Part shown: in pieces, positions 5,990 to 50,517 of the stretch
Layout of the letters: each line of letters opens with the position of its first letter
Position numbering within the stretch: position 1 is the stretch's first letter
Position numbers and translations under genes: made by a program
Source of the DNA: Rhizobiales bacterium 64-17
GTDB taxonomy: Bacteria > Pseudomonadota > Alphaproteobacteria > Rhizobiales > Xanthobacteraceae
DNA: 64,000 nt
Direction: 5' to 3'
NCBI GenBank assembly: GCA_001899285.1
Contig: MKWA01000008.1
Location: forward strand, 186,001-250,000
Notes under the pieces: model-generated
Databases searched by the model: none
The model's input: only the letters and a program-made list of their open reading frames with translations
What the model was told of the DNA's origin: nothing

Positions 5990-6015
5990 ATCGCTTGCGA
6001 GACCAACACAGTCCC

Positions 6016-30031: not shown

Positions 30032-30073
30032 CTACAGTAGCGGCATCTTCTGTATCAGAGGAAAGCGTGCCGA

Positions 30074-33740: not shown

Positions 33741-36042
33741 CGATCGGTTGGAACCTCAAGCTTATTATGAATCGACCGTGTCGCCAAAGACGGCCGCGTG
33801 GGATGGAATAAGCGTATCGGAAATCGTGCGGATCCTGCGTCGCCGTGTGGCGGTGATCGGTTTCACAGTGGCGGTGTTTGTTGTCGCTGCGGTACTCGTC
33901 ATCATCCTTGTAAAACCGACTTATACGGCGACGTCGACGGTATTGATCGACCCGCGCCGTCCGAATGTTGTCAATCTTGACAGCAAAAATCAGCCCGCAA
34001 TCCAAAGTCCGCAGACCGACGATGCCGCGATCGAGAGCCAGGTGCTTTTGGCTCAGTCGATCGCGGTGCTGCGTCGAGTCGTGGAATCGATGAAGCTGAC
34101 CGATGATCCGGAATTCACGCCGAAGCCCGGCATCATGGGAAGCCTCCTGGCCCTGCTCCCCGCAACACGACGTCCGGTCGGCGACACGCAGGATGTCAAG
34201 ACGAAGTCCGCCGTCGCAATATTGCAGAACAAGCTTAAGGTTGTGCGTCAGAAGAATACATTTCTGGTCGACATCAATGTCGGATTGCACGATCCCTATC
34301 GTGCAGCTGAGATCTCCAACGCGATTGCCAACGCCTATTTCGAGGAACTGATCCGATCAAAATCGGATGCAAACAAGAGTGCCGCAGGCTGGCTGAACGA
34401 GCAGATGAGCGAATTGAAATCGCGCGTTGAGGCTTCTGATCGCGCGGTCGAGCAATATCGTGGTGAACACAATCTTACGCTCGCGAAAGGTGAAACGATC
34501 AATAGCCAGCAGGTCTCAGACCTGAATAGCAAACTGGTGCAAGCGCGCGCCGATGCTGCGGAAGCTCGCGCAAAATATGATCAAGTTGCCGAGATTGCAC
34601 GGAACAAGGCCGATCCGGGCTCTCTCACGGAAGCGTTGTCGTCGGACACGATTGCTCGATTGCGGGGGCAGTATGCGCAGTTGCGGGTCAATGAGTCGGA
34701 TCTGTCGAGTCGCTACGGCGCCCATCATCCGCAAGTAGCTGCGGTACGCGCCCAATTGCGTGATACGCAGAAGCTGATCACGGACGAAGTCGCTCGCATT
34801 TTGCAGAGCCGGCGTCACGGCTATGAAGTTGCGGCGGCGCGTGAGCAGTCTCTCTCGAACAGTCTCAAATCTCTGCAAGAGGTGTCCAGCACGTCAGGGC
34901 AGGCGGAGGTACGATTGCGCGAATTGCAACGCGAAGCGGATGCCGATCGTTCGCTCTACGAAGCATTTCTCGGAAATTACAAAGAGGCTACGGCGCGTGA
35001 GAGTTTCCAGTTGCCGGAGGCCCGTATTGTTTCCCTGGCAACTGCTCCAATTCAACCCTCATTTCCGAAGCCGCTGTTGTTTCTGGGAATCTTCATTCCA
35101 CTGGGTGTCGCTTTTGGTTCTCTGATCGCCATCGGGATCGATCGTTTCGATCGGCGCGTGAAAACGTTGGATCAAGTAGAGGCAATTTCGGGCATGGTGG
35201 GAATTGCGACATTGCCGCTGATCGGCTTACGCGAGCTATCACATATGGCCAAGCGCGGGAAAAGCGCGCTATCCGAATATCAGGCGCAAGCGCCTCAGAT
35301 TCTGCCGTTGGCGCTACAACCTCCATTGATGCGTTACATCGCCGAAGAGCCGAACTCGGTGTTTGCCGAAGCAATCCGCGCGGTGCGTTTGAGTGTGCAG
35401 CGTGCCGCGCATGCGCGGCGGATGCAGGTGATCATGCTGACGTCGGCCATCGACGGCGAAGGCAAGACGACGTTGGCAGCCAATCTGGCATTATCGTACG
35501 CAATGATGGGCGTGCGCACTCTGTTGATCGAAGGAGATATGCGCAATCCGGAAGTATCTCGATCGCTCTGCCCCCACGCGGAGGTCGGGCTGTTTGATGT
35601 TGCGCGCGGCGAGGCGTCGCTCCAGCAGGCCGTTTTGATGGAGAAGACAACGGGTCTGTCGGTGTTGCCGTCGCCACTATCGGAAGATTCGGCGGTAATG
35701 ACCGAGTTCGCTTATTCCGAAGCCATGAACATCATCGTGAGTGAGTTGCGTCGCCATTTCGACATGATCATTGTCGATTCACCGCCATTGGTTCCGCTTG
35801 TCGAGAGTCGTGCTCTCAGTGAGCATGCCGACGGGATTGTATTAGCGGTCGGATGGGATCGCACACCGGAAGATTTGGTGGTGCGAGCGGTCGATTTGTT
35901 GAGCCCGGTCCGTGATCGTATTCTGGGAGCTGTATTGACATCCGCTGATCTGCGACGGCTGCGCGGTTACGACTATTATCAGAGTACCGCCTACGTCAAA
36001 CCCTATCACCCCGGCCGGGCCAAGCAGGTTGCCGAGTCGTAG
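33721..36042 (+). CDS. Polysaccharide copolymerase / BY-kinase (Wzc-like)
   Basis: A 773-residue inner-membrane protein controlling chain length and export. A Wzz domain (about 28-130) begins at the first membrane helix (about 43-66). A long periplasmic coiled-coil region with the GNVR segment follows, then a second helix (PLLFLGIFIPLGVAFGSLIA, about 450). The cytoplasmic CpsD-like tyrosine kinase has Walker A DGEGKTTLAAN (about 577), Walker A' LLIEGDMRNPE and Walker B MIIVDSPP (about 682). A C-terminal Tyr cluster (YDYYQSTAYVKPY) is the expected autophosphorylation site. ATG 33721 overlaps the barrel gene and has AGGGG upstream. Confidence 0.93.
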   Translation: MLRRVTDDRLEPQAYYESTVSPKTAAWDGISVSEIVRILRRRVAVIGFTVAVFVVAAVLVIILVKPTYTATSTVLIDPRRPNVVNLDSKNQPAIQSPQTDDAAIESQVLLAQSIAVLRRVVESMKLTDDPEFTPKPGIMGSLLALLPATRRPVGDTQDVKTKSAVAILQNKLKVVRQKNTFLVDINVGLHDPYRAAEISNAIANAYFEELIRSKSDANKSAAGWLNEQMSELKSRVEASDRAVEQYRGEHNLTLAKGETINSQQVSDLNSKLVQARADAAEARAKYDQVAEIARNKADPGSLTEALSSDTIARLRGQYAQLRVNESDLSSRYGAHHPQVAAVRAQLRDTQKLITDEVARILQSRRHGYEVAAAREQSLSNSLKSLQEVSSTSGQAEVRLRELQREADADRSLYEAFLGNYKEATARESFQLPEARIVSLATAPIQPSFPKPLLFLGIFIPLGVAFGSLIAIGIDRFDRRVKTLDQVEAISGMVGIATLPLIGLRELSHMAKRGKSALSEYQAQAPQILPLALQPPLMRYIAEEPNSVFAEAIRAVRLSVQRAAHARRMQVIMLTSAIDGEGKTTLAANLALSYAMMGVRTLLIEGDMRNPEVSRSLCPHAEVGLFDVARGEASLQQAVLMEKTTGLSVLPSPLSEDSAVMTEFAYSEAMNIIVSELRRHFDMIIVDSPPLVPLVESRALSEHADGIVLAVGWDRTPEDLVVRAVDLLSPVRDRILGAVLTSADLRRLRGYDYYQSTAYVKPYHPGRAKQVAES

Positions 36043-36070
36043 CGATCGTTTGCATTGAAAAGGACTGTCA

Positions 36071-37168
36071 ATGCCGTCTGTTTTGATGGTTAGCGGGTCG
36101 TGGCCGCCGGACGCTTGCGGCGTTGGCGATTACACGGAGAGGCTTTGCCGCGAACTCGAGGCCAGTGGGATCGTCGTAGTACGCTTTTCCGACCAGCGTC
36201 TGTCGCAGCTCTATTCGCGTGGTGCGATCGAGGATCTGGCGAAAGTCGATTGCGATCTCGTTCATGTCCAGTATCCGACCGCGGGCTATGGCAGGTCTTA
36301 TACGCCGGCCGCGCTACCGTTTGCCTTGCCCGGTAAACCCGTGGTCGTCACGTTGCACGAGTATGCCATCTTTCGCTGGTATCGACGATCTTGGTTTTCT
36401 CCTTATGCTCGACGTGGTGCAGCGCGAATTTTCACCACCGATGAGGAGAGGCGGCTGTTCGAGCAAAACTTTCCACGTCGCGTTGGTCTCGACGAGACGA
36501 TCGAGATTGCGAGCAATATCCCGATAGCGGTTCCGAGACCCGAACACGACCGAACTCGCATTGTCTCGTTCGGGTTGATTGCACCAAACAAGGGTATTGA
36601 GGATTTTCTGACCCTGGCGGAACAGGCTCGGGCTGCCCAAAGCCCCTTTTCCTTCGAGGTGATTGGCGCGATGCAGGAGCGGCATCGCGCATATGCTGAT
36701 GCGATCAAACGGCGAGGCATGCTGGCGGATGTCGCCTTTTCTATCAATTTGCCGGATGGCGCGGTTGCACAGCGTCTGGCCGGTGCCGGCTATGCTTACC
36801 TTCCATTTCCGGATGGTGCCTCGGCAAAACGGGGAACGCTCGCAGCAGCGTTGATCAACAAGCTCGTCGTTCTCACCCGGCATTCCGCGATCACGCCGCC
36901 ATGGATGGTCGCGGCAACATTTCATGCGCCGGGGGCAAGGGAAGCCCTTTCGTTGCTGAATACGCTGTCGGTGGATCAAAAATCCCGGGAAGTCGCGATC
37001 AGAAAAGGTGCTGATGCAGAGGCGCACTATAGCTGGAACGGAATAGCGCGAAGACACGCTGCTCTTTACGACAGGCTTCTCAGCGTCCGGCAAACGTCCC
37101 CCAGCCGCAGGCTGAATAACTCCTCACAATTAATCTCCGATATCAGCCTGAAGGAAGGTGCACGATGA
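36071..37168 (+). CDS. Glycosyltransferase family 4-like (exopolysaccharide)
   Basis: A 365-residue GT-B protein. The N-domain start VLMVSGSWPPDACGVGDYTERL (given in two parts: VLMVSGSWPPDACG and VGDYTERL) is typical of GT4. So are VHVQYPTAGYG and PVVVTLHEYAIF, and the C-domain begins IVSFGLIAPNKGIEDFL. The usual EX7E pair near the donor site is not evident (PFPDGASAKRGTLAAAL instead), so it diverges from canonical retaining GT4 enzymes. It probably adds one sugar to the lipid-linked repeat. ATG preceded by AAAGGA; 28 bp after the kinase gene and overlapping fkbM-like by ATGA. Confidence 0.82.
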   Translation: MPSVLMVSGSWPPDACGVGDYTERLCRELEASGIVVVRFSDQRLSQLYSRGAIEDLAKVDCDLVHVQYPTAGYGRSYTPAALPFALPGKPVVVTLHEYAIFRWYRRSWFSPYARRGAARIFTTDEERRLFEQNFPRRVGLDETIEIASNIPIAVPRPEHDRTRIVSFGLIAPNKGIEDFLTLAEQARAAQSPFSFEVIGAMQERHRAYADAIKRRGMLADVAFSINLPDGAVAQRLAGAGYAYLPFPDGASAKRGTLAAALINKLVVLTRHSAITPPWMVAATFHAPGAREALSLLNTLSVDQKSREVAIRKGADAEAHYSWNGIARRHAALYDRLLSVRQTSPSRRLNNSSQLISDISLKEGAR

Positions 37169-38022
37169 CGATCGCATTGGAGAATTATGCCAAGCGCTAT
37201 CTGCCGCAGCCAGCAGTCGATGTCCTTCGGCTGATGAAATACCGGATGGACCTGGCGACGTTTCCGAAGAAAGTTGTACAGCATATGTACGGCGCTCACA
37301 CACTGAAAATGAATATCAGCGATCGCGTCGCGTCGGAGTGGTACAACAAGAACTGGACTCTGCCGCCGGAGATCGAATTCTTTTCACACGGGCAGATTTC
37401 GAAGAGTGGTCGCATTTTTGATCTCGGCGCGCATCAATGTTTGATCGCGATGTTGCTGGCGCACGATATCGTTCCCGACGGGGAGGTGGTGGCTATCGAG
37501 GCAAATCGGCATAATGCTGCTATCGCGCGCGACAATATTTTGCTCAATCAGGTCGATAATATTGATGTCATTCATGCCCTTGTGTCGCGAACGAGCGGGC
37601 GAGGGCATGCCGATTTCAGTTTTAATTCCAGGGCCAGGCAAGGGCTTGGCGCTTTGATCGGCGAGACAATTGCGGGGATCAGCATTGATGATCTGGCTCA
37701 ACAGAAGGGATGGCCGGACCTCGTTTATCTCGATATCGAGGGCTTCGAGATCGAGGCTCTGAAAGGTGCTGCCGCGACGCTGGAACGCTGGTGCTATTGG
37801 TTTGTCGAATTGCACGGCGACGAGATGCTGTCCCGCTACGGCGCCCGCAATGCCGATATCCTTCAGTTTTTTGATCGCGATAAATTCGCGCGATACGTCT
37901 GCATGCCTGAGGGGGACAGTTTCCGGCTGGTGACCGAGAATGAGCCGGTGCCGGTCGAACGATGCTATCTCATCTTTGCGCCGCGTTCGGCTCGTCTACT
38001 TAATGACAGGTCGGATTATTGA
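37165..38022 (+). CDS. FkbM family methyltransferase
   Basis: A 285-residue SAM-dependent methyltransferase. The SAM-binding motif I is IFDLGAHQCLIAMLLA (about 91-106), followed by VVAIEANRHNA. The FkbM hallmark YLDIEGFEIEALKGA is at about 190-204. It probably O-methylates a sugar of the exopolymer, judged by position between glycosyltransferase and pyruvyl transferase genes. The ATG overlaps the preceding stop (ATGA) and its stop overlaps a possible TTG start of the next gene, so translation is coupled. Confidence 0.87.
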   Translation: MTIALENYAKRYLPQPAVDVLRLMKYRMDLATFPKKVVQHMYGAHTLKMNISDRVASEWYNKNWTLPPEIEFFSHGQISKSGRIFDLGAHQCLIAMLLAHDIVPDGEVVAIEANRHNAAIARDNILLNQVDNIDVIHALVSRTSGRGHADFSFNSRARQGLGALIGETIAGISIDDLAQQKGWPDLVYLDIEGFEIEALKGAAATLERWCYWFVELHGDEMLSRYGARNADILQFFDRDKFARYVCMPEGDSFRLVTENEPVPVERCYLIFAPRSARLLNDRSDY

Positions 38023-38030
38023 GCAACGCC

Positions 38031-39050
38031 ATGGAGGTGATCTACTACCGAAGTCCCAATGGGAATTTTGGCGACGATCTTAATTCGGTGCTGTGGAAGG
38101 CGCTTCTGCGACCTGCATGCTTCGAAGCAGATGACGCGGTGTTGCTTGGGATCGGCTCGATATTTCGCGAGGATTATCTGTCGGCAAAATCGACTGATCG
38201 CAAGCGGGTTTTCGTTCTTGGCAGCGGCGCTGGAACAGGGCCGCTGCCGAGCCGCTGGCCAAATGCGGATTGGGCTGTTCTCGGCGTGCGCGGGCCGTTA
38301 ACAGCCCGCCTCATCGGCCGGCCGGCGGCAGCAATGACTGATAGTGCTGCGCTGTTGGCGGCGGCGCCAAAGCTGGCGCCGGCGGGGCCGAAGCGCAACG
38401 ATATCGTTTTTATGCCGCATTACAATTCAGTGGAGCATAGTCGATGGCCGGAACTCTGTCGGCGGCTCGGCATGACATTCGTCGATGCGCGTTGGCCGGT
38501 TGGTCGGACACTTGATCGAATTGCGCGTGCGCGGCTGGTGCTTACTGAAGCCATGCATGGGGCCATCGTTGCCGACACGTTGCGAGTGCCGTGGATTCCG
38601 GTGCATTGTTCGCCGGCGATCCTGCCTTTCAAATGGATCGACTGGACGCGATCCCTTGAGCTGAAGTTCCGGCCGATCGCGCTGCCGCCCAGTTCGGCCT
38701 GGGAAGCGCTCAAGCACATCAAGATCCGGACCGTCGATGGTGCCAACGGGATGCACCGGTTGTCGGATTCGGATGACGATCTGATCAACGATTTCTTTCG
38801 TCGTTACGGTCAGATGGCGACAGACGATCTTGCTCCGAAGAAGATCGTCGGCGGTGAACCGGCCAAGATTTTGCAGAGAACCCTGTCATCGTTCGACCGG
38901 GTATTCACCGACCGTGCAGAACGCGCGCTGCTTGCTGCGAGCAAGGGGCAGCCTTTCCTGAGCGCGGAGGCGATCTTCGCGCAGCGCGTTGATCGCCTCT
39001 ATGCTGCGGCGATGAAGCTGGAGCAGACGATCACTGGAACGCTCCATTAG
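38031..39050 (+). CDS. Polysaccharide pyruvyl transferase family protein
   Basis: About 339 residues of the PS_pyruv_trans/CsaB fold, which adds a pyruvate ketal to sugars from PEP. Visible are YYRSPNGNFGDDLN at the start, LGIGSIF, a central VLGVRGPLTARLIG and MTDSAALLA. The conserved LTEAMHGAIVADTLRVPW (about 173) contains the catalytic-region His. Pyruvylation would give the exopolymer negative charge, since no uronic-acid synthesis genes are present here. An in-frame TTG at 38019 overlaps the fkbM stop (TTGA) and is an alternative start. The stop codon interleaves with that of the convergent flippase gene. Confidence 0.87.
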   Translation: MEVIYYRSPNGNFGDDLNSVLWKALLRPACFEADDAVLLGIGSIFREDYLSAKSTDRKRVFVLGSGAGTGPLPSRWPNADWAVLGVRGPLTARLIGRPAAAMTDSAALLAAAPKLAPAGPKRNDIVFMPHYNSVEHSRWPELCRRLGMTFVDARWPVGRTLDRIARARLVLTEAMHGAIVADTLRVPWIPVHCSPAILPFKWIDWTRSLELKFRPIALPPSSAWEALKHIKIRTVDGANGMHRLSDSDDDLINDFFRRYGQMATDDLAPKKIVGGEPAKILQRTLSSFDRVFTDRAERALLAASKGQPFLSAEAIFAQRVDRLYAAAMKLEQTITGTLH

Positions 39051-40369
39051 AGCGTTGAACCGGCGGGCCGTCTCATGGCGGCGGTCATCACGATGGCGGT
39101 GTTGATGGCGGTACCGAATGCGTTGGCCCAGAGAATGCCCGACGCGCCCATGTGGTGTCCGAGTGCGATCCCGGCCGATGCGAATGCAACAAGGCCCACG
39201 ACGCGAGCCGTGAACACGATGCGCGTCCGATGGGTTGCCAACAACGAAATGGACGAGGCATTGCGCGCCGCATCGCAGATGATGGCCAGTGATAGTGGCC
39301 ACAGTAGGGATGCAGAAGCAGCGATTTCCGATTTTCGGTAGATCATTGGTAGCAGCGTGGGTGCTGCGACGATGACGATGATGCAATACGTCAAGGCGCT
39401 GCCGGCGAAGACTGCGGTTCCATTTCGGGCAAACCGCCGCGCATACTCATTGTTGCGATCTGCGACATTGTCGGCGATGCGAGGCAGGATCGTAAGGTTG
39501 AGAGCAGCATTGAACTGGACGATCGGCGTCAACAGATTCTGCAGCGCGCGCACGATGCCGGCGATGGCTGGGCCACTGAGTGCTGCTATGAGCGGGAAGA
39601 TGCCCCACGTAACGAACCAGGACATCACCGCCGCGGGAGTGAGCCAGCGGCTGGCGCTCCAGATTTTTGCTGCGAGCCAGATGACATGGGATGGGCGGCT
39701 GCGGATAGAGCGACCGATACCCAGACAAAGAACCACGATGATGGCGGCAATCGCGCCGAATCCGGAAATAGCGATGGCGGCAGGAACTGTCAGAACCTGC
39801 AGGCTTGTCAAAGCCGAGGCGGCGCCAATCGAGGCGGCGGCATAAGCCGTTGCAGCAGCCGCAGCAACCGATTGCCGGTCTCTGATGTAGCAAAGGCGGC
39901 GGAAGAACAGATAGAAGCGCTGCAGTGGGTTGGTAAGCGCCAGGATCGCAACCGGCCACACATAGGCTGGAAATGTTTGTGCCAGAATGAGGGCGGCGAT
40001 GGCGAGCAAGGCACTGCTCCCCAGGCTGAATCCAGCCACGATCCAGATCGCCGCGCGGTCGACGCGATGACGATTGCGACGGCTGTAGCGGCTGACGATT
40101 GCCGGCAAGGCGTCGATGATCAGGGAACTCTGAACAGCTTCGATGAACAAGGCCGCAGTCCAGACAACGACATAGCGACCAAAATCGTCGATCGGCAGCC
40201 AGACGGCGTAAAGAATGGTCAGCGCGAAATTGCTTGCGCTGTAAAGCCCCTGATCGGCAAATGCGAACAGGAGGCGCGCTTTCCAGCGCTGCATGATTGT
40301 CCATACGGCGAAGATCCGTCCCGACGGTGTGCCGAGTGCGGTCGCGGAAGATCGCGGGTTATCATTCAC
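39047..40369 (-). CDS. Oligosaccharide flippase (Wzx-like, MOP/MATE superfamily)
   Basis: About 440 residues with 12 or so hydrophobic segments and no soluble domain. The first helix region is FAFADQGLYSASNFALTILYAVW, seen here as FADQGLYSASNF, a typical polysaccharide-flippase opening. It should move the lipid-linked repeat unit across the inner membrane for polymerisation. The GTG at 40369 overlaps the stop of the upstream glycosyltransferase (GTGA). ATG 40294 is an alternative giving a shorter cytoplasmic tail. The longest open frame extends further but only over the glycosyltransferase gene. Confidence 0.83.
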   Translation of the reverse strand: MNDNPRSSATALGTPSGRIFAVWTIMQRWKARLLFAFADQGLYSASNFALTILYAVWLPIDDFGRYVVVWTAALFIEAVQSSLIIDALPAIVSRYSRRNRHRVDRAAIWIVAGFSLGSSALLAIAALILAQTFPAYVWPVAILALTNPLQRFYLFFRRLCYIRDRQSVAAAAATAYAAASIGAASALTSLQVLTVPAAIAISGFGAIAAIIVVLCLGIGRSIRSRPSHVIWLAAKIWSASRWLTPAAVMSWFVTWGIFPLIAALSGPAIAGIVRALQNLLTPIVQFNAALNLTILPRIADNVADRNNEYARRFARNGTAVFAGSALTYCIIVIVAAPTLLPMIYRKSEIAASASLLWPLSLAIICDAARNASSISLLATHRTRIVFTARVVGLVAFASAGIALGHHMGASGILWANAFGTAINTAIVMTAAMRRPAGSTL

Positions 40370-42234
40370 CGCGGGATCACATTGGGCACACGAACGCCCG
40401 TGAGCCATTGTTGTGAGACACGCAGCAGAAACAGCGGCATCTGGATCAGATAACGTCGCCACAGCCGGGCTGGCTCATGCAGCAGGCGATAGGCCCATTC
40501 AAGCCGCGCTTTCTGAACCCAGTTCGGAGCGCGCGGTACCACGCCGGCCATGAAATCGAAAAGGCCGCCGACGCCGAAGCCGAGGTGGCAGCCGGTCTGC
40601 TCGAGATGTTCGTTCAGCCACGCCTCCTGTCTTGGGTTGCCCATGGCGACAAGCAGGATATCGGCGCCGCTATGCCTGATCTGTGCGAGGACGCGCGGCA
40701 GATCGCGTTGCTGATAATAGCCATGACTGGTTCCGACGAAGTCGTGTTGTGGGCTCAGTCGTGCCAGTCGTTGCGCGGCCTTGGCCGCGACGCCAGGCCG
40801 GCCGCCCAGCAGGAACACACGATGACGATATCGGCTGGATTGTAGATAGTGCGGGATGAAATCGGTTCCGTTCAGGTTTTCCGGAAACTTTTTGCCGAAG
40901 AGGAGGCGGCTGGCGAAATCAACGCCGATCCCGTCATTGAAGACGATGGCGCGGTCGAGTGCCGTTTGCAGCCCGTGATGGGAGGCCGTCGAATTCAGCG
41001 TATGGGCGTTGGCGAAAGCGACAACGGTCGGAGCCTGGTGTTCGTATTGCTGATCGAGAAGAGTGACAGCTTGTTCTGCGGTTTTGACGAGAATGGGAAT
41101 ATTGAGAATGGTTCGGACGTGCTGCCCACGGACGGTTCGATAAAATCGTTCGTATCGTGCATTGGCGGCTGGCCAGTTGAATGCAGTAGCCGCTTCCATC
41201 GTTCTCCTGCGGTGATCCGCATGAGTGCTCGACACAGTTGCCCAATCTGACAGGAACTGCCGAGCCGCTGTATCGACGTCCGCAAAATTCACCAAGGTTC
41301 CAACCCCGGTATGCTGGGCAAGGTGAACATAGGGCGGGATCGAGCTCAGCACGGGCCAGAGGCCGGCCGACATTCCCTCAATCGCTACAAGGCCGAACCC
41401 TTCGTAGTCGGATGCACTCAGGAAGACGGAGGCTTGCGCCATCGCTTCGCGTACGGAGGCATCTGATGGACTCGCGATGATTCGAACCCTGTCGCCGACA
41501 CCGAGTTCGCTGGCAAGATGCTGCATGTTTTCGGGCGAGACATCCCAGGGACGTCCGGCAATGATCAATGACCAGTCCGGATCATTGCGATTGACGGCGG
41601 CAAGAAAACGAATGGCATGATCGATACGTTTGTTGCTGGAAAAACGACCAACCGCGATCATTGTTTTCGTCGGCGTCGACGATGAGGCGTCAGCATATTT
41701 TTCGATATCAACGCCGTTCTCGATCACGCATAAGCCACGAAAACGAATGGCCTTAAACAAGTTCTCGTCCGATACGCTGACGGCGGCGATCCCGGAATAT
41801 CCGCGGAGCGACAACCGAGTCACGGTGTTGAAATAAAGCTTTTTCAGTCTGGCGGCGAACCCGGTGTGAAAAAATCCGCCATGGGTCGACAAGACAAGTT
41901 TTCGCCGGTGCAGCGGCGCAGTCCAGGCAAGATAGTCGCAAAAGAAATCGACACCATGCACATGAACGATGTCGGCATCGCGAATATGACGGATAACGGA
42001 GAATGCGATTGGATAGCGTTTTGAGCCGAAAAACGGAACTCTGACAACGTCGATTCCATTGCGCTGTTCGCGTCGACGCAAGCGAGGAGCATCAGGTGCA
42101 TTGAACAGGCGATCGAGCGTTACGACGCGGACACGATGACCGTTGGCAATTTGTTCGGCGGACAGCGAAGCAACGACACCCTCAAGGCCCCCCACCGAGG
42201 GATGGAACTGACGCACAACGTGAACGATATACAT
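40366..42234 (-). CDS. Fused glycosyltransferase: GT4 domain + WecG/TagA/CpsF (GT26) domain
   Basis: A 622-residue two-domain enzyme. Residues 1 to about 370 are a GT-B family 4 glycosyltransferase: VRQFHPSVGGLEGVV, VHVHGVDFF, VGRFSSNKRIDHAI and the EX7E pair E278/E286 in DYEGFGLVAIEGMSAG. Residues about 375-615 are a GT26 domain: FNDGIGVD (432-439), FLLGGRPGVA, MGNPRQEAWL (531-540) and VGGLFDFMAG (555-564), with the membrane-associating basic C-terminus. The two activities probably add consecutive sugars of the exopolymer repeat, as the separate GumH and GumM enzymes do for xanthan. ATG 42234 chosen; no frame break is seen between domains. Confidence 0.9.
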   Translation of the reverse strand: MYIVHVVRQFHPSVGGLEGVVASLSAEQIANGHRVRVVTLDRLFNAPDAPRLRRREQRNGIDVVRVPFFGSKRYPIAFSVIRHIRDADIVHVHGVDFFCDYLAWTAPLHRRKLVLSTHGGFFHTGFAARLKKLYFNTVTRLSLRGYSGIAAVSVSDENLFKAIRFRGLCVIENGVDIEKYADASSSTPTKTMIAVGRFSSNKRIDHAIRFLAAVNRNDPDWSLIIAGRPWDVSPENMQHLASELGVGDRVRIIASPSDASVREAMAQASVFLSASDYEGFGLVAIEGMSAGLWPVLSSIPPYVHLAQHTGVGTLVNFADVDTAARQFLSDWATVSSTHADHRRRTMEAATAFNWPAANARYERFYRTVRGQHVRTILNIPILVKTAEQAVTLLDQQYEHQAPTVVAFANAHTLNSTASHHGLQTALDRAIVFNDGIGVDFASRLLFGKKFPENLNGTDFIPHYLQSSRYRHRVFLLGGRPGVAAKAAQRLARLSPQHDFVGTSHGYYQQRDLPRVLAQIRHSGADILLVAMGNPRQEAWLNEHLEQTGCHLGFGVGGLFDFMAGVVPRAPNWVQKARLEWAYRLLHEPARLWRRYLIQMPLFLLRVSQQWLTGVRVPNVIPR

Positions 42235-42569
42235 TATGTGATGATGTCCAGATATTTCTGTGGGAAGAAGCGATGTGCCTTGTGTCCTGTCTGCAGCAGC
42301 GGCGGAACCCTCTCCGGATACAGCCGCGCCATCAAAACGTCGCATAATTCTCAATGCTGCATGATCGCGATAGGCGAACTGTGATGTCTAATCTTGGCGT
42401 CAATGTGCTCGGCCGTCTGCACATCAAATGTGCAGTAGGTGCAGATGATTGATGGAGTGGTGCACTGTCAGTTTGTTTTCGGCAACATCATCGAAATATC
42501 GCTCAACATCATCGTCGTGGAATACATCGCGGGGTTGTTGAGAATCTGCAGCCCATCCTTGTAGCTGTG
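42235..42569. promoter_or_regulatory. Divergent promoter region with a 19-bp palindrome
   Basis: 335 bp between the minus-strand fused glycosyltransferase and the plus-strand GH5 gene. At 42417-42435 there is a perfect inverted repeat, ctgcacat-caa-atgtgcag (8-bp arms). Related gtgca words recur just downstream (42440s-42460s). This is a good candidate operator for both units, though the regulator is unknown and none is encoded in the cluster. No gene is visible in the spacer. Confidence 0.5.
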
Positions 42570-43607
42570 ATGGCGACTATCGTCTGCGCCCTCATGCTGT
42601 TGATGTCAGCATCGGGTTCATTCGCGCAGACCGGTCTGCCGTATCTGACAGGCGTCAACATCGCCGGCGCGGAATTCAACGGACGCAAGATCCCCGGAGT
42701 TCCCAATCGGGATTATTTCTACCCGGCAAAAGCAACAATTGATTATGTCGCATCAAAGAGAATGACCAGTATCCGTGTTCCTTTCCTGTGGGAACGGATG
42801 CAGCCTCAGTTAAATGGTCCGTTGGAATCGGAAGAGTTGCGTCGCCTCGACGAGGTTGTTCGTTATGCCATCGGCAAGCGGCTGTATGTGGTTCTCGACC
42901 TGCACAATTATGCTTATTACCGACAAAAGGTGATCGGCAGCCCCGATGTTCCAGTGACTGCACTTGCTGATATCTGGAAGCGTTTGGCTATTCATTTCAG
43001 GGACAGTCCGCTCGTCGGGTTTGGCTTGATGAATGAGCCTAAGGGATTGCTGACGGAAACGTGGCTTTCTGCTGCCAATGCCGCGATAGCGGCAATCCGC
43101 AATACAGGCGCAAGCAATACGATTTTTGTTCCTGGTAACGGCTGGACCGGTGCACATAGCTGGCTCAGTACTCGCTATGGCGCGCCGAACGGCGATGTAA
43201 TGCTCGGTGTGGTCGATCCGGCAAACAATTACGTCTACGAGGTGCATCAGTATCTGGATTCGAATTATTCCGGGACGCATGCGGCTTGCCGCAGTGAAAC
43301 CGTGGGCGTCGATACTCTGCAGCTTTTTACGCAATGGGCGCGTCAGAATGGGAAGCGCGCTTATCTCGGTGAGTTTGGAGTTGGCGCAGATCCCGTCTGC
43401 CTCGGCGCGCTGAATGCGATGCTGACGTTCATCGATGAAAATAGGGACGTATGGGTCGGCTGGAGCTATTGGGCGGCGGGCGCCTGGCCACCGAGCTATT
43501 TCACCAGCGTTCAGCCGGTGAATGGCGTCGATCGGCCGCAGATGTCGGTCTTGCTGAACCATCTCGGTCGTCCGCAGGAGCGGGCGAACAAGGGAGCGGC
43601 GCAATGA
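42570..43607 (+). CDS. Secreted glycoside hydrolase family 5 (cellulase-like)
   Basis: A protein of about 345 residues with a signal peptide ending SGSFAQ and a (beta/alpha)8 GH5 catalytic domain. Visible are LTGVNIAGAEF, SIRVPFLWERM, the acid/base Glu in FGLMNEPKG, VYEVHQYLD and the nucleophile Glu in AYLGEFGVG. The Trp-rich GWSYWAAGAWPP forms the substrate platform. It should hydrolyse beta-glucan or beta-mannan links in the periplasm or outside, probably trimming or releasing the polymer made here. The start is GTG 42567 or ATG 42570. It overlaps the polymerase gene by ATGA. Confidence 0.9.
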   Translation: MATIVCALMLLMSASGSFAQTGLPYLTGVNIAGAEFNGRKIPGVPNRDYFYPAKATIDYVASKRMTSIRVPFLWERMQPQLNGPLESEELRRLDEVVRYAIGKRLYVVLDLHNYAYYRQKVIGSPDVPVTALADIWKRLAIHFRDSPLVGFGLMNEPKGLLTETWLSAANAAIAAIRNTGASNTIFVPGNGWTGAHSWLSTRYGAPNGDVMLGVVDPANNYVYEVHQYLDSNYSGTHAACRSETVGVDTLQLFTQWARQNGKRAYLGEFGVGADPVCLGALNAMLTFIDENRDVWVGWSYWAAGAWPPSYFTSVQPVNGVDRPQMSVLLNHLGRPQERANKGAAQ

Positions 43608-44986
43608 GTGCCGCTGGCTTTCTCGGTGGCCGTCGGATAACGGTTCGGCGATCGTTCTGGTTGCGACCGCAGACTCTCGCAATATTAATCGCGACACTCT
43701 TTAATGCCGGGCTTTGTTTCGTGAACACCGTGGCCGGCGGTGTCGGCAACAGTGCAGTGATCGGATGCGAAGTCATTATCATCTTCGCGGTGCTGATCTA
43801 TGTATTCCCGACGGTAACCTATCCGCGGCTTTTGGCGATTGGGACAGCTATTCTTTTCCTGGCGGCATTGGCAGGCGCGCGCGCAGTGTTCAGCGGTGCT
43901 CTGGATGTCAAGCCGATACGCGATCTTCTGATTCCCATTGCATTCTTCCTGCTGGGGGCTGCTGCGCCCGATCTCCGTCTAGCGGATCGGATCGTCAGGG
44001 TAATCGTCGTGATCGTCATCGTGGTTGGAGTATTCGAGTATTTATTTCCGGAATTGTTCACGCGCATTTTCAATGTCGCCGGATTTTATATCGAGCGCGG
44101 CACGATGGCGCTGACGCAAGCTCAGCAGTCGTCCGATTTGTTTGTCAGCGGCATGCGGCCGGAAGGCGCGTCCGGGGGGCGTGGTCTGTTTCCTGTTCTC
44201 GGAAATCACCGTGTGTCATCGATTTTTCTTGAGCCGATATCGGCGGGGAATTTCGGGATTGTGGTGTTTATCTGGGCTTTGACGCGCTCGCTGATGGAGC
44301 GACGAGTTTTCTGGGGGCTGTTCCTCTGCGCCGGGCTGATCATCGTGATGGCTGACAGTCGGTTCGGAGCCAATTTTTGTGCCGTGATCCTTGTTTTGGC
44401 GCTTCTCCCGCTGGCGATCAGGAAGATGGTCGTTGCCGTGTTGCCGGTGCTGGCGATTCTTGGCTTGCTGGTCCTGCCGGACCTGTTGTCGACTTCCTTC
44501 AGAATTGACAATGGCTTTATCGGCCGGATCATCTTGTCCGGAAGTATCCTCGACAAGTTCACGACGCTTCAGTGGCTGGGGCTCAGCACGCCGGAATTCG
44601 TTACTTCGGATTCCGGCTACGCTTATACCTTGGGCGGTTTCGGCGTTGTCGGCATCGCGTTGTTCTGGATGGCGCTGATGCTTCTCCGGGGGAAAAACAA
44701 TTCATTTTATTTGATCCGCGACCTCAGCGCGGCCTATTTCGCGATTTTGCTTTGTATTAGCAATTCGCCGTTCACGATCAAGACAGGTGCGCTGTTGTGG
44801 TTTCTGATCGGCGCGGTATCGCAAAATCGTCTCAGTCCGATGAAGGCGGTCCATTTGCCAAGTGGCAAAAATAACGCAAACCTGCGCAGCTCACGCATCG
44901 ACGGGATGGCTCGGCACAGCAAGAACAGCTCTCGAGCCCATTACACTGAGTTGTCCAGGCTCGCGAATGGCGGCGCGGTTAGATAG
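43604..44986 (+). CDS. Exopolysaccharide polymerase (Wzy/GumE-like)
   Basis: A 460-residue integral membrane protein with about 10-12 hydrophobic segments. A large periplasmic loop (about 150-205, FYIERGTMALTQ and GNHRVSSIFLEPISAGNF) carries His/Arg/Glu residues, as in O-antigen-polymerase-like proteins. The last 55 residues are polar and basic, a probable cytoplasmic tail. Position beside Wzx, glycosyltransferases and a glycanase makes it the best polymerase candidate in the locus. Wzy proteins are too divergent for identity by sequence alone. The ATG overlaps the GH5 stop codon, so both products are made together. Confidence 0.8.
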   Translation: MSAAGFLGGRRITVRRSFWLRPQTLAILIATLFNAGLCFVNTVAGGVGNSAVIGCEVIIIFAVLIYVFPTVTYPRLLAIGTAILFLAALAGARAVFSGALDVKPIRDLLIPIAFFLLGAAAPDLRLADRIVRVIVVIVIVVGVFEYLFPELFTRIFNVAGFYIERGTMALTQAQQSSDLFVSGMRPEGASGGRGLFPVLGNHRVSSIFLEPISAGNFGIVVFIWALTRSLMERRVFWGLFLCAGLIIVMADSRFGANFCAVILVLALLPLAIRKMVVAVLPVLAILGLLVLPDLLSTSFRIDNGFIGRIILSGSILDKFTTLQWLGLSTPEFVTSDSGYAYTLGGFGVVGIALFWMALMLLRGKNNSFYLIRDLSAAYFAILLCISNSPFTIKTGALLWFLIGAVSQNRLSPMKAVHLPSGKNNANLRSSRIDGMARHSKNSSRAHYTELSRLANGGAVR

Positions 44987-45076
44987 CATCGTAGCGCGCC
45001 ACGCATCGTAGGCCGGCGGACATGGCCGTCGGGCTGGGCCGGAACTCACGAGGTTGGAAGTGATTGCGGCCTCGTT

Positions 45077-46615
45077 TCACGCGGCGCTGATCGCCGGCAG
45101 CAGATTCGCGCCTGCGGCGGTGGCGACGGCGCCGCTGCGGACAAGATCGGTGGCGCTCTGCAGGTACGGATAGATGTACTGGTCGTCCTCGATATAAGGC
45201 ACTTTGGCGCGCACGCAGGCGCGCACCGCCTGCAGCGGCGCGCTTGAAACAAGTGGCCGGTGGAAGTCGCAGCCCTGCGCGGCGGTGAGCAGTTCGATGC
45301 CGACCACAGCGGCGGCGTTCTCGGCCATGCCGAGCAACCGGCGCGCGCCATGCGCTGCCATCGACACATGGTCTTCCTGGTTGGCCGAAGTCGGGATCGA
45401 ATCGACGCTCGCCGGGAATGCCTTTTGCTTGTTTTCCGACACCAGCGCGGCGGCGGTGACTTGCGGGATCATGAATCCGGAATTGAGGCCGGGCTTGGCG
45501 GTGAGGAACGCCGGCAGGCCGGACAATGCAGGATCGACCAGCATGGCGATCCGTCGCTCGGAAAGCGAGCCGATCTCGCAGATCGCCATCGCGATCATGT
45601 CGGCGGCGAATGCCACCGGCTCGGCGTGGAAGTTGCCGCCGGAGAGCGCCTCGCCGGTGTCGGCGAACACCAGCGGATTGTCGGTGACGCTGTTGGCCTC
45701 GGTCGCGAGCACGCCGGCGGCGTTGCGCAGCACGTCGTAGCACGCGCCCATCACCTGCGGCTGGCAGCGCAGGCAGTAAGGGTCCTGTACGCGCTCGTCA
45801 TTGACGAGATGCGAGGCGCGGATCGCGCTGCCGGCGAGCAGGGCGCGCAGCGCCGCCGCGGTTTTCACCTGGCCCTGATGCGGACGCAGCGCGTGGATGC
45901 GCGGATCGAACGGTGTATCGGAACCGCGTGCCGCGTCGGTCGCAAGTGCGCCGGTCACCAGCGCCGACTGCATCAGCAATTCGGCCTCGAACAGGCCGGC
46001 GAGCGCATAGGCGGTGGAGAACTGCGTGCCGTTGAGCAGCGCCAGACCCTCCTTGGGGCCGAGCACGAGTGGCGCGAGGCCCGCTTTGGCCAGCGCCTCG
46101 CCGGCCGGCAGGCGGCCCTGCGGTGTGAGGATGTGGCCGACGCCGAGCAGCGCGGCCGTCATGTGCGACAGCGGCGCGAGGTCGCCCGATGCGCCGACCG
46201 ATCCTTGCGCGGGAATTTCGGGGATCAGATCCTTGGCAAGCAGTGCCTCCAGCATGCGGATTGTTGCAACGCGCGCGCCGGAAGCGCCCTGCGCGAGGCT
46301 GGTCAGCTTAAGTGCCAGCATCAGTCGCACGACCTCGCGCGGCATCGGGGGGCCCATGCCGGCCGCATGCGACAGCACGATGTTGCGCTGGAGCGTGGCG
46401 AGATCCTCGGTCTTGATGCGCACATGCGCGAGTTTGCCGAACCCGGTATTGATCCCGTAGACCGGCTCGTCGCGGGCGATGATCTTTTCGACCGCCTTGG
46501 CACTGGCCTCGATTGTGGCGAAGCAATCTGCGCTGAGCTTCGCGCCCGCGCCGCGATAGATCGCGCGCCAATCCTCGAGCGGCACCCGGCCGGGGTTCAA
46601 AACGATCTCTGTCAT
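45077..46615 (-). CDS. hutH: Histidine ammonia-lyase
   Basis: A 512-residue lyase converting L-histidine to urocanate and ammonia in the cytoplasm. The MIO prosthetic triad Ala142-Ser143-Gly144 lies in [14 protein letters not shown], the catalytic Tyr53 in [10 protein letters not shown]. Ser82-His83 (LSHAAG) is the selector pair of histidine rather than tyrosine or phenylalanine lyases. The C-terminal SADQ-like [10 protein letters not shown] is also present. No hutU, hutI or hutG is adjacent. It diverges from a HutC-type repressor, with an 18-bp palindrome between them. Convergent with the polymerase gene, 90-bp gap. Confidence 0.94.
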
Positions 46616-46683
46616 CGGTCTCTCCGGTAGTGCGCGCCAGCAACCGCGGCGCCGTGTCCGAACCAGTTAAACCGAGCCGGATT

Positions 46684-46701
46684 ATTTTGTCTATACAAAA
46701 T
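46684..46701. promoter_or_regulatory. Palindromic operator, probable HutC site (copy 1)
   Basis: The 18-bp sequence attttgtctatacaaaat has 7-bp perfect arms around ctat. It sits in the hutH-hutC spacer, 69 bp before hutH. An identical 18-mer lies at 48570-48587 upstream of the DUF6282 gene. TGTATATACA-like palindromes are the known HutC target class, so this is probably the binding site of the adjacent repressor. Confidence 0.75.
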
Positions 46702-46702
46702 A

Positions 46703-46718
46703 GTTCTTTAAAAAGAAC
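46703..46718. promoter_or_regulatory. Second palindrome in the hutH-hutC spacer
   Basis: gttctttaaaaagaac, 7-bp perfect arms around aa, one base after the HutC-type palindrome. It is not repeated at the other HutC-type site. It may bind a different regulator specific to hutH/hutC or overlap a promoter. Confidence 0.45.
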
Positions 46719-46844
46719 CACAGACGGTGCCGCCAGGTTTGTGTGGAATTTCTCCAAGGCTCCGGTGACGCCGTCGCGCTTGTTGCGGACGGGCAAACTG
46801 CGCATAGTCGGTTCTGGGTTCGGCGACAGTTGCAAAAGGTTTCC

Positions 46845-47585
46845 ATGCCACCAAAGACGCGCGCCAGGCGGGCTGTGGCCGTGACGCTCAACGACCGGAT
46901 TCGGTCGGACATCGAAACCAGGATTTTCTCCGGCCGCTGGCCGCCTGGGCATCGTATTCCCAACGAACATGAATTGGCCGAGAAATACGCCTGCTCACGG
47001 ATGACCGTGAACAAGGTGCTGTCCGATCTCGCGGCGAAGGGCATCATCGAACGCCGCCGCAAGGCCGGCACTTTCGTTGCCAAACCGACGGTGCAGTCGG
47101 CAGTGCTGCGCATTCCCGACATCAAGGCCGAGGTCGAGGCGCTCGGTTATCTGTACCGCTACGAACTGCTATTTCTGAAGCGTCGCCATGCCACGAGGGC
47201 GGACCAGGATTTGATGCAGCTCAGTCCGCAGCACGACGTGATCGAATTCCGCTGTTTGCATTGGGCCAACCAGCAGCCCTTCGCTCACGAGCACCGGTTT
47301 CTCAACGTCACCGCTGTGCCGCAGGCTCTGGAGCAGGACTTCGGTGTCGAGCCGCCGGGCACCTGGCTGCGCAATCATGTGCCGTGGAGTGAGGCCGAAC
47401 ACAGCATCTTTGCCGAAGAGGCCGACCCGGAGGCTGCGCAGGCGCTCCATGTGACAAAAAGCGCCGCATGTCTGGTAGTCCAGCGGCGCACCTGGCGCGG
47501 CGGAGAGATGATCACCCACGTCCGCACCATCTTTCATGGTGCGCTTTATCGCCTCAATGCTCACTTCACTCCGACCAACGACTGA
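46845..47585 (+). CDS. hutC: GntR-family histidine-utilisation repressor (HutC type)
   Basis: A 246-residue repressor: an N-terminal GntR winged helix (about 12-80; IFSGRWPPGHRIPNEHELAE, SRMTVNKVLSDLAAKGIIERR) and a C-terminal UTRA effector domain (about 100-240). The latter has the HutC-like FRCLHWANQQPFAHEHRFLN and HHXXY-class ending TIFHGALYRLNAHF. HutC proteins sense urocanate and release DNA. ATG 46845 has AAAGG upstream; the frame is open to 46743, but that part is spacer and contains no domain. Its last 25 bp overlap the convergent DUF6282 gene. Probably autoregulated via the palindrome at 46684. Confidence 0.88.
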   Translation: MPPKTRARRAVAVTLNDRIRSDIETRIFSGRWPPGHRIPNEHELAEKYACSRMTVNKVLSDLAAKGIIERRRKAGTFVAKPTVQSAVLRIPDIKAEVEALGYLYRYELLFLKRRHATRADQDLMQLSPQHDVIEFRCLHWANQQPFAHEHRFLNVTAVPQALEQDFGVEPPGTWLRNHVPWSEAEHSIFAEEADPEAAQALHVTKSAACLVVQRRTWRGGEMITHVRTIFHGALYRLNAHFTPTND

Positions 47586-48538
47586 GTCGTCGAGGCAGCC
47601 GCCTTGCTGTCCATGCTTTCGAACAGCAGCTTGTTGGTGTTGAGCACCGACATCTGCACGATGTCATCTTCCTTGATGCCGCGCTTCTGGAATTCGCTGA
47701 AGAATTCGCGCAGAGCGTCGCCAACATTCGGCGAGAAGATCTGACCGACATCGGATGATAGAATGACGCCTTGCGAGCCGACCGCTTCGATCACCTCGAT
47801 ATATTGCTCATAGGTGAGGTGGTCCATGGCGAGGTTGACGAAGGCGAGTTCGCTGTAGGCGCCGTACTGTTCCCACATGCGCTTCATTGTCTCCGGGTCG
47901 AGTTCGGTCGCCTGAAATAGCGGATGCGTCATGATGATGCGCCGGATGCCCATCTCATAGGCCATCTTCACCAGCGTCAGCGTTTCTTTGCGGTCGAAAT
48001 GTCCGGTTGCCAGAATCAGGTCATGCTCGCGGATCAGTTCGAGCGCCCGGCGCATCGCCGCCATCTTGTCGTTGTCGGCAGTGTCGAAGGTGTAGCCGGT
48101 GCCTTCCGCATAGAAGCGGGTGTATTCGCGTTTGATGCCCCACGCTTCCGACAGGTCGCGGCGGTTATAGAGACGCAGATGCGCCTCGCAGCACACCGTC
48201 GGCATCCACACCACGAAACGCTGTGCATCGGGATCGGCGGCGGTCACGTCGCTCTTCCAGCCGGAGAGCGCCGAGCGCACGCCGTGATCGTCGACGCCGC
48301 CGCAGCCGAAGTTCAGCGCCACCGAGCCGATCAGCGCGACCTTGTCGTCCGGCCGGCGCACCTGGCTCACCTGGGCGGTGGTCGGAATGAAATGGTTCTT
48401 CATCACCACGCCGAAGCCTTCGCGCCGCGCTTCGGCGGCGAGGGCTTCCGCGGAGTATTTGCGGCGCAGCAGTTCCGGGCCGATATGCACGTGCATGTCG
48501 ATGACGCGTTTGTCGCCGACGTGAGGGAGCGCCTTCAT
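47561..48538 (-). CDS. Amidohydrolase-like metal hydrolase, DUF6282 family
   Basis: A 325-residue cytoplasmic TIM-barrel metalloenzyme of unknown substrate. The metal-binding HxH is in VIDMHVHIGPE (about 15-17). Further ligand candidates are GVVMKNHFIPT (Lys/His, about 47-49), LATGHFDRKE, IIMTHPLF and ILSSDVGQIFSP (Asp, about 265). No signal peptide. It is preceded by the second copy of the HutC-type palindrome and diverges from an MFS transporter, so it is probably expressed with hutH. It is not one of the classical Hut enzymes (HutI, HutF); substrate prediction would be guesswork. Confidence 0.78.
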   Translation of the reverse strand: MKALPHVGDKRVIDMHVHIGPELLRRKYSAEALAAEARREGFGVVMKNHFIPTTAQVSQVRRPDDKVALIGSVALNFGCGGVDDHGVRSALSGWKSDVTAADPDAQRFVVWMPTVCCEAHLRLYNRRDLSEAWGIKREYTRFYAEGTGYTFDTADNDKMAAMRRALELIREHDLILATGHFDRKETLTLVKMAYEMGIRRIIMTHPLFQATELDPETMKRMWEQYGAYSELAFVNLAMDHLTYEQYIEVIEAVGSQGVILSSDVGQIFSPNVGDALREFFSEFQKRGIKEDDIVQMSVLNTNKLLFESMDSKAAASTTQSLVGVK

Positions 48539-48569
48539 GATCGTGCCTCCTGCCTTGATGCGTCAAAGA

Positions 48570-48587
48570 ATTTTGTCTATACAAAAT
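48570..48587. promoter_or_regulatory. Palindromic operator, probable HutC site (copy 2)
   Basis: Identical in all 18 bases to the palindrome at 46684-46701. It lies 32 bp upstream of the DUF6282 start codon, in the spacer shared with the divergent MFS gene (ATG at 48691), so one site could repress both promoters. Confidence 0.75.
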
Positions 48588-48690
48588 GTGTTGTCAAGCT
48601 GGAACCGCGGCGCGGAACACTGGCACACGTCTTGCTCACGCTATTCCGGTGTCTTTGGTTTAAAGCGATCCAGAAACGGGGGAAGAGCTG

Positions 48691-49944
48691 ATGTCAATCC
48701 AATCATCAACCACGCACGAACAGGTTGCCGGCGGCGCCGATGCGTCGGCCGACCGCTACGCACGCAAAGCGTTGATCGCATCCAATGTCGGTTATGCGAT
48801 GGACGGCTTCGATCTGATGATTCTGAGCTTCATGCTGCCCGCGGTTGTGGCGGGATTGCATCTCACCGGATCGGAAGCGGGTTCCCTGATCACCTGGACA
48901 CTGATCGGCGCTGTGATTGGCGGCCTCATTGTCGGAACCTTGAGCGACAAGTTCGGTCGGATCCGTGTGCTGTCGTGGACCATCTTGCTGTTTGCCGTGT
49001 TCACTGGCCTGTGCGCGTTCGCGCAGGGCTATTGGGATCTTCTGATCTACCGCACCATCGCTGGCATCGGGCTTGGCGGCGAATTCGGTATCGGCATGGC
49101 GCTGGTGGCGGAAGCGTGGCCGGCGCACAAACGGGCGCGTGCCTCGTCCTATGTGGCGCTCGGCTGGCAGGCCGGCGTGCTCAGTGCCGCGCTGCTTACG
49201 CCGCTGCTGCTGCCGCTGATCGGATGGCGCGGCATGTTCCTCGTCGGCTTGGTTCCAGCGGTCATCGCTTTCGGGCTGCGCCGGTATTTGCACGAGCCGG
49301 AGCTGTTCGTGAAGGCGGCCAAGAAGGAAGAGGGGCGCGGCACCAATCCCTACAGCTATCTGTTCGCCAATCGCGAGGCGACGCGCTCCACCATCGGCAT
49401 CGGCATCATGACGTCGATCCAGAACTTCGGCTATTACGGCATGATGATCTGGCTGCCGTCCTATCTGTCGACGCAACTAGGCTTTTCGCTCACGCGCTCG
49501 GCGTTGTGGACTTCGGTGACGGTGATTGGCGGCGCCTTCGGCATGTGGCTGTTCGGCCAGCTTGCCGACCGCATCGGCCGCAAGCCGCTGTTCGTCGCGT
49601 TCCAGGTCGGCGCCATGGTGATGGCTTTCGTCTATCCACAGATCAAGGATCCGACCTTGCTGCTGATCGCCGGCGGCATCACCGGTATCTTCCTGAGCGG
49701 CATGATCGGCGGTTACGGTGCGCTGATCTCGGAGAGCTATCCGACCCAGGCCCGAGCGACGGCACAGAACGCGCTGTTCAATATCGGCCGCGGCGTTGGC
49801 GGGTTTGGTCCGCTGGTGATCGGCTTGCTGGCGACACAGTATTCGCTGTCGGTCGCGCTGTCGTTCCTGGTTTTTGTCTGGGCGCTCGACATCGTCGCCA
49901 CCGTGTTCCTGATCAAGGAACGCAAGGGCGAACAACTCGTCTGA
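48691..49944 (+). CDS. MFS transporter, aromatic-acid/H+ symporter-like
   Basis: A 417-residue 12-helix MFS carrier. Helix 1 contains GYAMDGFDLMILSFMLP, the DGFD motif of the AAHS-type carboxylate symporters. The TM2-3 loop is GTLSDKFGRIRVLS, helix 4 GIGLGGEFGIGMALVAE, and the second-half loop GQLADRIGRKPLF. It probably imports an organic acid. Its divergent arrangement with the DUF6282 hydrolase and shared palindrome suggest it takes up that enzyme's substrate or urocanate. Ends at an 18-bp-stem terminator. Confidence 0.87.
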   Translation: MSIQSSTTHEQVAGGADASADRYARKALIASNVGYAMDGFDLMILSFMLPAVVAGLHLTGSEAGSLITWTLIGAVIGGLIVGTLSDKFGRIRVLSWTILLFAVFTGLCAFAQGYWDLLIYRTIAGIGLGGEFGIGMALVAEAWPAHKRARASSYVALGWQAGVLSAALLTPLLLPLIGWRGMFLVGLVPAVIAFGLRRYLHEPELFVKAAKKEEGRGTNPYSYLFANREATRSTIGIGIMTSIQNFGYYGMMIWLPSYLSTQLGFSLTRSALWTSVTVIGGAFGMWLFGQLADRIGRKPLFVAFQVGAMVMAFVYPQIKDPTLLLIAGGITGIFLSGMIGGYGALISESYPTQARATAQNALFNIGRGVGGFGPLVIGLLATQYSLSVALSFLVFVWALDIVATVFLIKERKGEQLV

Positions 49945-50040: not shown

Positions 50041-50517
50041 TTAATCGATCAGGACTTCTCCTTCGATCTCGACCGGGATGTCGAACGGCAGTTCCGCGAC
50101 ACCGACGGCCGAACGCGCATGCTGTCCGCGCTCCTGTCCGAATATTTCAATGATCAGATCGGAAAATCCGTTGATGACGCTCGGCATCTCGCGAAATCCG
50201 GGTGCGCAGTTCACCATGCCGAAGGCCCGGACCCAGGTGATATGGTCGAGGTGGCCGAGTTCGCGCTGGAGGCTGGCGAGCATCGCCAGCCCGGTAAGGC
50301 GCGCGGCGCGATAGGCATCCTCCTTCGTGACCTCGCTGCCGACGCGGCCGAACGGCTTGGCGAAACTGCCGTCCGGATTGATCGGGCCGTGCCCTGAAAT
50401 CAGCGCGCGCTTGCCGCAGACGCGCACGCTGGCGAACGGGAGCACAACGCCGGGTGGAATGCGGGCCGGTTGCGGTAGCACAATGCTGAGTTGTTTCAGA
50501 CGGTCGGAGATGAGCAT
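50041..50517 (-). CDS. RidA (YjgF/YER057c/UK114) family protein
   Basis: A 158-residue member of the RidA superfamily; archetypal RidA hydrolyses reactive enamine/imine intermediates. The longer form with the N-terminus LPQPARIPPGVVLPFASVRV and the conserved ISGHGPINPDGS belongs to the subgroup often paired with catabolic genes. NCAPGFREMPSVINGFSDLI and RSAVGVAELPFDIPVEIE are the trimer-interface and active-site regions. The Arg of the ligand site is probably the one in RSAVG. Convergent with the MFS gene across the terminator. Physiological substrate unknown. Confidence 0.85.
   Translation of the reverse strand: MLISDRLKQLSIVLPQPARIPPGVVLPFASVRVCGKRALISGHGPINPDGSFAKPFGRVGSEVTKEDAYRAARLTGLAMLASLQRELGHLDHITWVRAFGMVNCAPGFREMPSVINGFSDLIIEIFGQERGQHARSAVGVAELPFDIPVEIEGEVLID

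Follow-up and report, generated by a model that had tools for sequence, protein, structure and literature searches.

The stretch of DNA considered here, hereafter the window, comprises 64,000 nucleotides of Rhizobiales bacterium 64-17 (contig MKWA01000008.1, positions 186,001 to 250,000) and harbours a histidine ammonia-lyase gene, hutH, arranged divergently from a gene for a HutC repressor, followed by a second divergent pair encoding a DUF6282 protein and a carrier of the major facilitator superfamily (MFS). A first-pass annotation, made from the letters alone, had pointed to one and the same 18-bp palindrome at both divergent promoters, and this is borne out by exact matches to ATTTTGTCTATACAAAAT at 46684-46701 and 48570-48587. 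The genes and features of the locus, in window coordinates, are as follows:

45077-46615, minus strand: hutH, histidine ammonia-lyase, 512 amino acids (TIGR01225, canonical active-site motifs)
46684-46701, unstranded: operator 1, predicted HutC-type palindrome in the hutH/hutC gap (sequence pattern)
46845-47585, plus strand: hutC paralogue with GntR helix-turn-helix and UTRA domains, 246 amino acids from the ATG at 46845 (TIGR02018)
47561-48538, minus strand: DUF6282 protein, 325 amino acids, putatively metal-hydrolase-like (PF19799)
48570-48587, unstranded: operator 2 (predicted), an 18-mer identical to operator 1, in the DUF6282/MFS gap (sequence pattern)
48570-48597, minus strand: promoter-like sequence for the DUF6282 gene, TTGACA-16-CAAAAT (consensus match only)
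48691-49944, plus strand: MFS carrier, 417 amino acids (MFS_1; nearest NCBIfam model aromatic acid/H+ symporter)
50041-50517, minus strand: RidA-like protein, 158 amino acids, a convergent neighbour for which HutC control is not claimed (PF14588 and PF01042)

The gene assignments of the first-pass annotation hold. HutH and HutC score above their respective cut-offs (677.9 bits against 539.15 for TIGR01225 and 292.8 bits against 220 for TIGR02018), the latter with the GntR (PF00392) and UTRA (PF07702) domains, and the remaining two proteins match PF19799 (148.8 bits, gathering cut-off 26.8) and MFS_1 (183.9 bits). Since HutH can be aligned almost end to end with histidine ammonia-lyases of solved structure (1gkm) and retains the ASG and NQEDH motifs, it is most likely an ordinary enzyme of its kind; we take ASG (the MIO triad) and the other conserved motifs to represent the active site. 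A longer hutC frame with a GTG start runs from 46743, and the ATG at 46845 was taken as the start. The hutC gene and the 3' end of the DUF6282 gene share an overlap of 25 bp.

Operator 1 lies inside the 229 bp that separate hutH from the hutC ATG, and operator 2 lies 31 bp ahead of the DUF6282 start and 103 bp ahead of the MFS gene, with the second hexamer of the DUF6282 promoter-like match falling within it. The 18-mer differs from its own reverse complement at two positions, 16 of the 18 thus being palindromic, and 100 dinucleotide shuffles yielded no match at up to three mismatches. Throughout the source genome (G000, 4.63 Mb in 26 contigs), the pattern ATTTTGTNTANACAAAAT at up to two mismatches was found at the two window sites only, which answers the earlier suggestion to look for the same motif elsewhere in the genome. 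The core at both sites, GTCTATAC, fits the consensus GTMTAKAC given for operators of the HutC subfamily in PMC4494728, and it resembles the Pseudomonas HutC site, TGTA-N2-TACA, as described in PMC12977541. A wider pattern, WTTGTNTANACAAW, occurs at five places in the genome, namely the two window sites, two sites in a hutI/hutF gap on contig C22, and C8:18689 on the contig of the window; its matches differ at their edges, which read T...A in the window and A...T on C22. The fifth place (C8:18689-18702, L090 ~9684-9707) is a perfect 24-bp palindrome, GTTTAATTGTATATACAATTAAAC, with the core of the C22 hut sites, directly ahead of a small gene that we presume to be of the DUF1330 type.

The locus itself contains no hutU, hutI, hutG or hutF and is thus not a classical hut operon. 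The first-pass annotation had said as much, and its statement stands for the locus but not for the genome, in which hutU and hutI share one strand of C22 and hutF and a second hutC occupy the opposite strand, the hutI/hutF gap holding two operators of the ATTGTnTAnACAAT kind. That cluster is devoid of hutH, and the search of the genome for hutH gave only two matches, each scoring above the cut-off; one is the window gene (C8), and the other is on C7 at a distance of about 6 kb from another hutU that itself exceeds the cut-off. Matches to hutU are located on C22, C7 and C4, and hutI exceeds its cut-off on C22, none of these lying within the window; hutF was found on C22, no genome-wide search for it having been made. 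The window hutH may well supply the step absent from the C22 cluster and, with hutU, hutI and hutF in place there, no new pathway is needed. The alternative urocanate pathway suggested earlier from the absence of these three genes was accordingly rejected.

The other two contigs with hutU matches have features of their own. On C7 (G000:C7:13016-22148, L064), the second hutU-like and hutH-like genes sit near CoA-transferase, aminotransferase and PrpF genes, and the HutH encoded there carries YAVNTGFG in place of YGINTGFG, so that its substrate may differ. On C4 (G000:C4:23906-25510, L065), the match is a thiourocanate hydratase (NF058530, 1024.1 bits against a cut-off of 930), which suggests the breakdown of ergothioneine in this genome.

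Twenty-five proteins of the genome match the HutC model at E<=0.001, and two of them exceed its cut-off. The window HutC is 42% identical to that of C22 and 47% identical to the HutCs of two Aminobacter species, and it does not join the C22 protein in a 12-row HutC tree. The window HutH, in turn, groups with the HutH of the Aminobacter hut loci and one HutH of a second Pseudolabrys genome (a 5-row group, support 95/95). Taken together, these relationships suggest a separate origin rather than a recent local duplication, and a recent duplication of HutC within the genome is not supported by the identity and the tree placement.

The second Pseudolabrys genome (G001, 83% complete with 6% contamination), which belongs to the genus of the source genome, has hutH, hutC, DUF6282, MFS, RidA, TctC and IlvD arranged as in the window, with identities of 90-99% and, for the first four, of 95-97%. 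Its matches to the pattern WTNTGTNTANACANAW are confined, genome-wide, to the two orthologous sites. Site 1 is unchanged over all 18 of its bases, whereas the remainder of its gap agrees in 152 of 211 columns; for site 2, the core of which still fits the consensus, the corresponding figures are 16 of 18 and 109 of 137. When 11 genomes were searched with the operator pattern, two sites were found in G001, one place in G011 and none in the other nine; the backward control matched once each in two of the 11. In three genomes whose HutC exceeds the cut-off (G004, G033 and G036), the hut sites have other edges, and the pattern therefore misses some HutC sites. G001 has two further HutC proteins over the cut-off, one at a hut cluster (C112) and one beside another hutH (C172). 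At the latter place (G001:C172:17676-20217, L073), the additional hutH is 74% identical to that of the window and adjoins a HutC of 252.3 bits that is remote from its window counterpart, at 28% identity; a ATTGTCTATACAAT site lies between the two genes.

The arrangement recurs in a second lineage. Aminobacter aganoensis and A. niigataensis possess DUF6282 (85% identity) with a divergent MFS gene (82%) and no adjoining hut genes, and the gap between the pair contains ATTATGTATATACATAAT. Genome-wide, the operator pattern is found at two places in A. niigataensis and three in A. aganoensis, with none for the backward control, and the hutI/hutF gap and the DUF6282/MFS gap account for two of two and two of three of these, respectively, 142-143 kb apart in both species. 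Judged by their resemblance to the genes of Pseudolabrys, hutU, hutH, hutI, hutF and hutC are present at the Aminobacter hut locus; for A. aganoensis, hutC was confirmed by the HutC model and hutG by a match to the N-formylglutamate deformylase (FGase) family. Each of the two genomes has one HutC over the cut-off. By simple arithmetic, a random site in a 5.3-Mb genome has a chance of about 6 in 100,000 of falling within one particular gap of 300 bp. In each lineage, regulator and target would share an altered operator, which is what genuine control would lead one to expect. The remaining A. aganoensis site (L106 ~1210-8357), not found in A. niigataensis, lies between a gene of the Asp/Glu/hydantoin racemase family and a NikA-like operon for an ABC transporter of the nickel/peptide type.

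The close DUF6282 type was found in six genomes (G000, G001, G011, the two Aminobacter species and Rhodoplanes Cfx2-03) by a search that recovers close relatives only, so that more may exist. All six have the divergent MFS gene, and four of them have a HutC-type site in the intervening gap. Open reading frames in these neighbourhood surveys were chosen by length and third-position GC, so that some are likely to be artefacts and others to have been overlooked, as hutG of A. niigataensis was. Among 397 genomes drawn evenly from the order, the DUF6282 query at E<=1e-60 matched its own genome alone, and the close subfamily therefore looks rare. In 17 family members, D14, H16, H18, H180, E230 and D263 of the DUF6282 protein are invariant, K47, H49 and H205 are nearly so, and the DxHxH motif is conserved. 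A profile search of the PDB gave weak matches, the best being a dipeptidase (E 0.003, C-terminal part only). From these residues and matches, a metal-dependent hydrolase is plausible. A place in the amidohydrolase superfamily, which is typified by HxH, two additional histidines and an aspartate on a TIM barrel, is a tentative possibility, H16, H18, H180, H205 and D263 being the candidate residues. A scan of viral contigs for more diverse DUF6282 sequences returned the pattern in 11 stretches, none of which was confirmed. As for the carrier, the description as an organic-acid-type transporter in the first-pass annotation is loosely supported in that the aromatic acid/H+ symporter family TIGR00895 is the best NCBIfam match, yet the score of 325.4 bits falls below the cut-off of 418.55; PRK11551/MhpT ranks fifth among the NCBIfam models, likewise below its curated cut-off.

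The explanation we favour, and hold to be somewhat better than an even bet, is a satellite HutC regulon in Pseudolabrys, in which a second HutC governs the hutC/hutH promoters together with a separable DUF6282/MFS module. HutC would bind its particular operator variant, TTTGTCTATACAAA, at both sites and thereby repress both divergent promoter pairs until released by urocanate, either formed by HutH or imported, as would follow from known HutC biology. Urocanate from HutH would probably feed the hutFC/hutIU cluster elsewhere in the genome, where a different HutC has the ATTGTnTAnACAAT sites, and the MFS carrier would probably import an aromatic or imidazole-type acid, which, or a derivative of which, the DUF6282 protein probably hydrolyses. 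That HutC controls the DUF6282 and MFS promoters, as the first-pass annotation had proposed, is highly probable in view of both sites in G001 and of the operator variant shared in two Aminobacter species, and the advice to examine related genomes for co-occurrence of DUF6282, MFS and hutC was rewarded by the link in these three genomes. The metabolic half, in which HutH feeds the C22 enzymes while the MFS and DUF6282 proteins import and hydrolyse a compound met with, or yielding, histidine or urocanate, is put forward tentatively. The pair is probably a real part of the programme of histidine use, and most likely represents a peripheral step of uptake and hydrolysis that the hut response has recruited, the module having been placed under HutC.

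Several observations weigh against this explanation. Considered by itself, site 2 barely exceeds the surrounding gap in its conservation in G001, and the operator pattern has a background, comprising the backward-control matches and the place in G011, which adjoins a dnaG-like gene (read by eye) away from DUF6282. In Rhodoplanes, which has a HutC of 300.7 bits and a HutC-type site ahead of hutH, the pattern did not match at the DUF6282/MFS promoter. G011, a single contig that is 100% complete, keeps the order DUF6282-MFS-RidA but has neither hutH nor hutU nor a HutC over the cut-off, and the pair therefore appears able to work outside histidine breakdown. The hutH on C7, accompanied by a hutU, is another gene that could serve the pathway, and an AlphaFold model of the DUF6282 protein from five close sequences (mean pLDDT 40.3) is too poor to use.

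The strongest competitor is regulatory capture alone, whereby the pair handles a compound unrelated to histidine, such as an aromatic or N-heteroaromatic acid, that co-occurs in nature with histidine or urocanate. The pair appears to be a separable module because it is present without the operator in Rhodoplanes and G011, two of the six genomes, one of which is devoid of hutH and hutU; hence the capture of a separate step, the second option offered in the first-pass annotation, fits better than a new pathway. Aromatic or organic-acid catabolism genes also lie beside four (Thermus, Alicyclobacillus, Roseomonas and Paracoccus) of the six plasmid relatives of DUF6282 examined out of 43 matched records, the Thermus relative neighbouring catechol 2,3-dioxygenase and aldolase genes and the other two relatives offering no clear association. 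All six relatives are below 31% identity, and such distant proteins may differ in substrate. Moreover, HutC-type sites accompany the pair in two lineages in different variants, which speaks for a persistent functional tie, and capture without any metabolic link is a possibility that we regard as rather unlikely.

Two further proposals fare much worse. Another GntR-family regulator might bind the 18-mers, the adjacency of hutC being incidental, and the 25 HutC-model matches, of which only two exceed the cut-off, show that other proteins of this family are at hand; nonetheless, site 1 adjoins hutC, where an autoregulatory site is expected, the shared Aminobacter variant sits at the hut operon itself, and the C22 hut promoter has the same core, all of which makes this proposal improbable. 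That DUF6282 replaces HutG, the N-formylglutamate deformylase absent from the C22 cluster, is suggested by its metal-hydrolase-like motif set and by the sole FGase-family (PF05013) match of the genome being on C9, outside that cluster, but it is no more credible, as the C9 protein could do the job (members of the family turned up in 39 of the 40 genomes screened), the hut operon of A. aganoensis includes an FGase gene while the species still carries DUF6282 with the shared operator, and G011 has DUF6282 without hutH or hutU.

With regard to the surroundings, the RidA-like neighbour is kept in all three Pseudolabrys genomes found with the DUF6282/MFS pair (90.5% identity in G001 and 73.6% in G011). 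On the other side, genes resembling those of polysaccharide synthesis (read by eye), with a GC content of 0.51-0.61, occupy about 30000-45000 of the window and stop just before hutH, the GC content of which is 0.68. In G001, hutH is followed by LysR, TctC and FAD monooxygenase-like genes, unlike in the window, and this different flank places a synteny break at about 45 kb, beside hutH.

Regulons of HutC in Proteobacteria, with a GntR-family repressor, hutH as a target and hutH paralogues in Rhizobiales, were described by Leyn et al. (2016, PMC5343134), in the available text of which such regulons are seen to gain lineage-specific transporters, including a COG2814 permease in Ralstonia. The present locus agrees with that account in its repressor, its hutH target and its added transporter, and departs from it in that a second HutC belongs to a small cluster of its own, where the edge of the operator is altered; the portion of the account consulted makes no mention of DUF6282. 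It likewise shares with the HutC/Phut system of Pseudomonas, as far as the accessible part of PMC12977541 goes, a repressor of histidine and urocanate use with a site centred on TGTA-N2-TACA, the differences here being the core TGTCTATACA, predicted targets that include DUF6282 and MFS, and hutU, hutI and hutF at another locus. A literature search for the term DUF6282 found no paper, and the partly available literature on HutC with urocanate, transporters, regulons and alphaproteobacteria did not describe the pair. Within these sources, HutC regulons with lineage-specific transporters are known, and the DUF6282/MFS pair as predicted targets is new.

The finding may be put to use in more than one way. 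Two HutC repressors with different operator edges and split hut loci in one genome would make the divergence of repressor and operator testable. The predicted control ties DUF6282, a widespread family, to a defined inducer system and directs the search for its substrate towards compounds related to histidine and urocanate. We suggest, speculatively, that, in two or more lineages of Alphaproteobacteria, the pair constitutes a hitherto unrecognised branch under HutC which imports and hydrolyses an imidazole-bearing compound, for example, a conjugate of histidine or urocanate, and feeds the degradation of histidine; if true, a DUF6282 protein would have a role assigned to it for the first time, as far as the literature search for the term goes.

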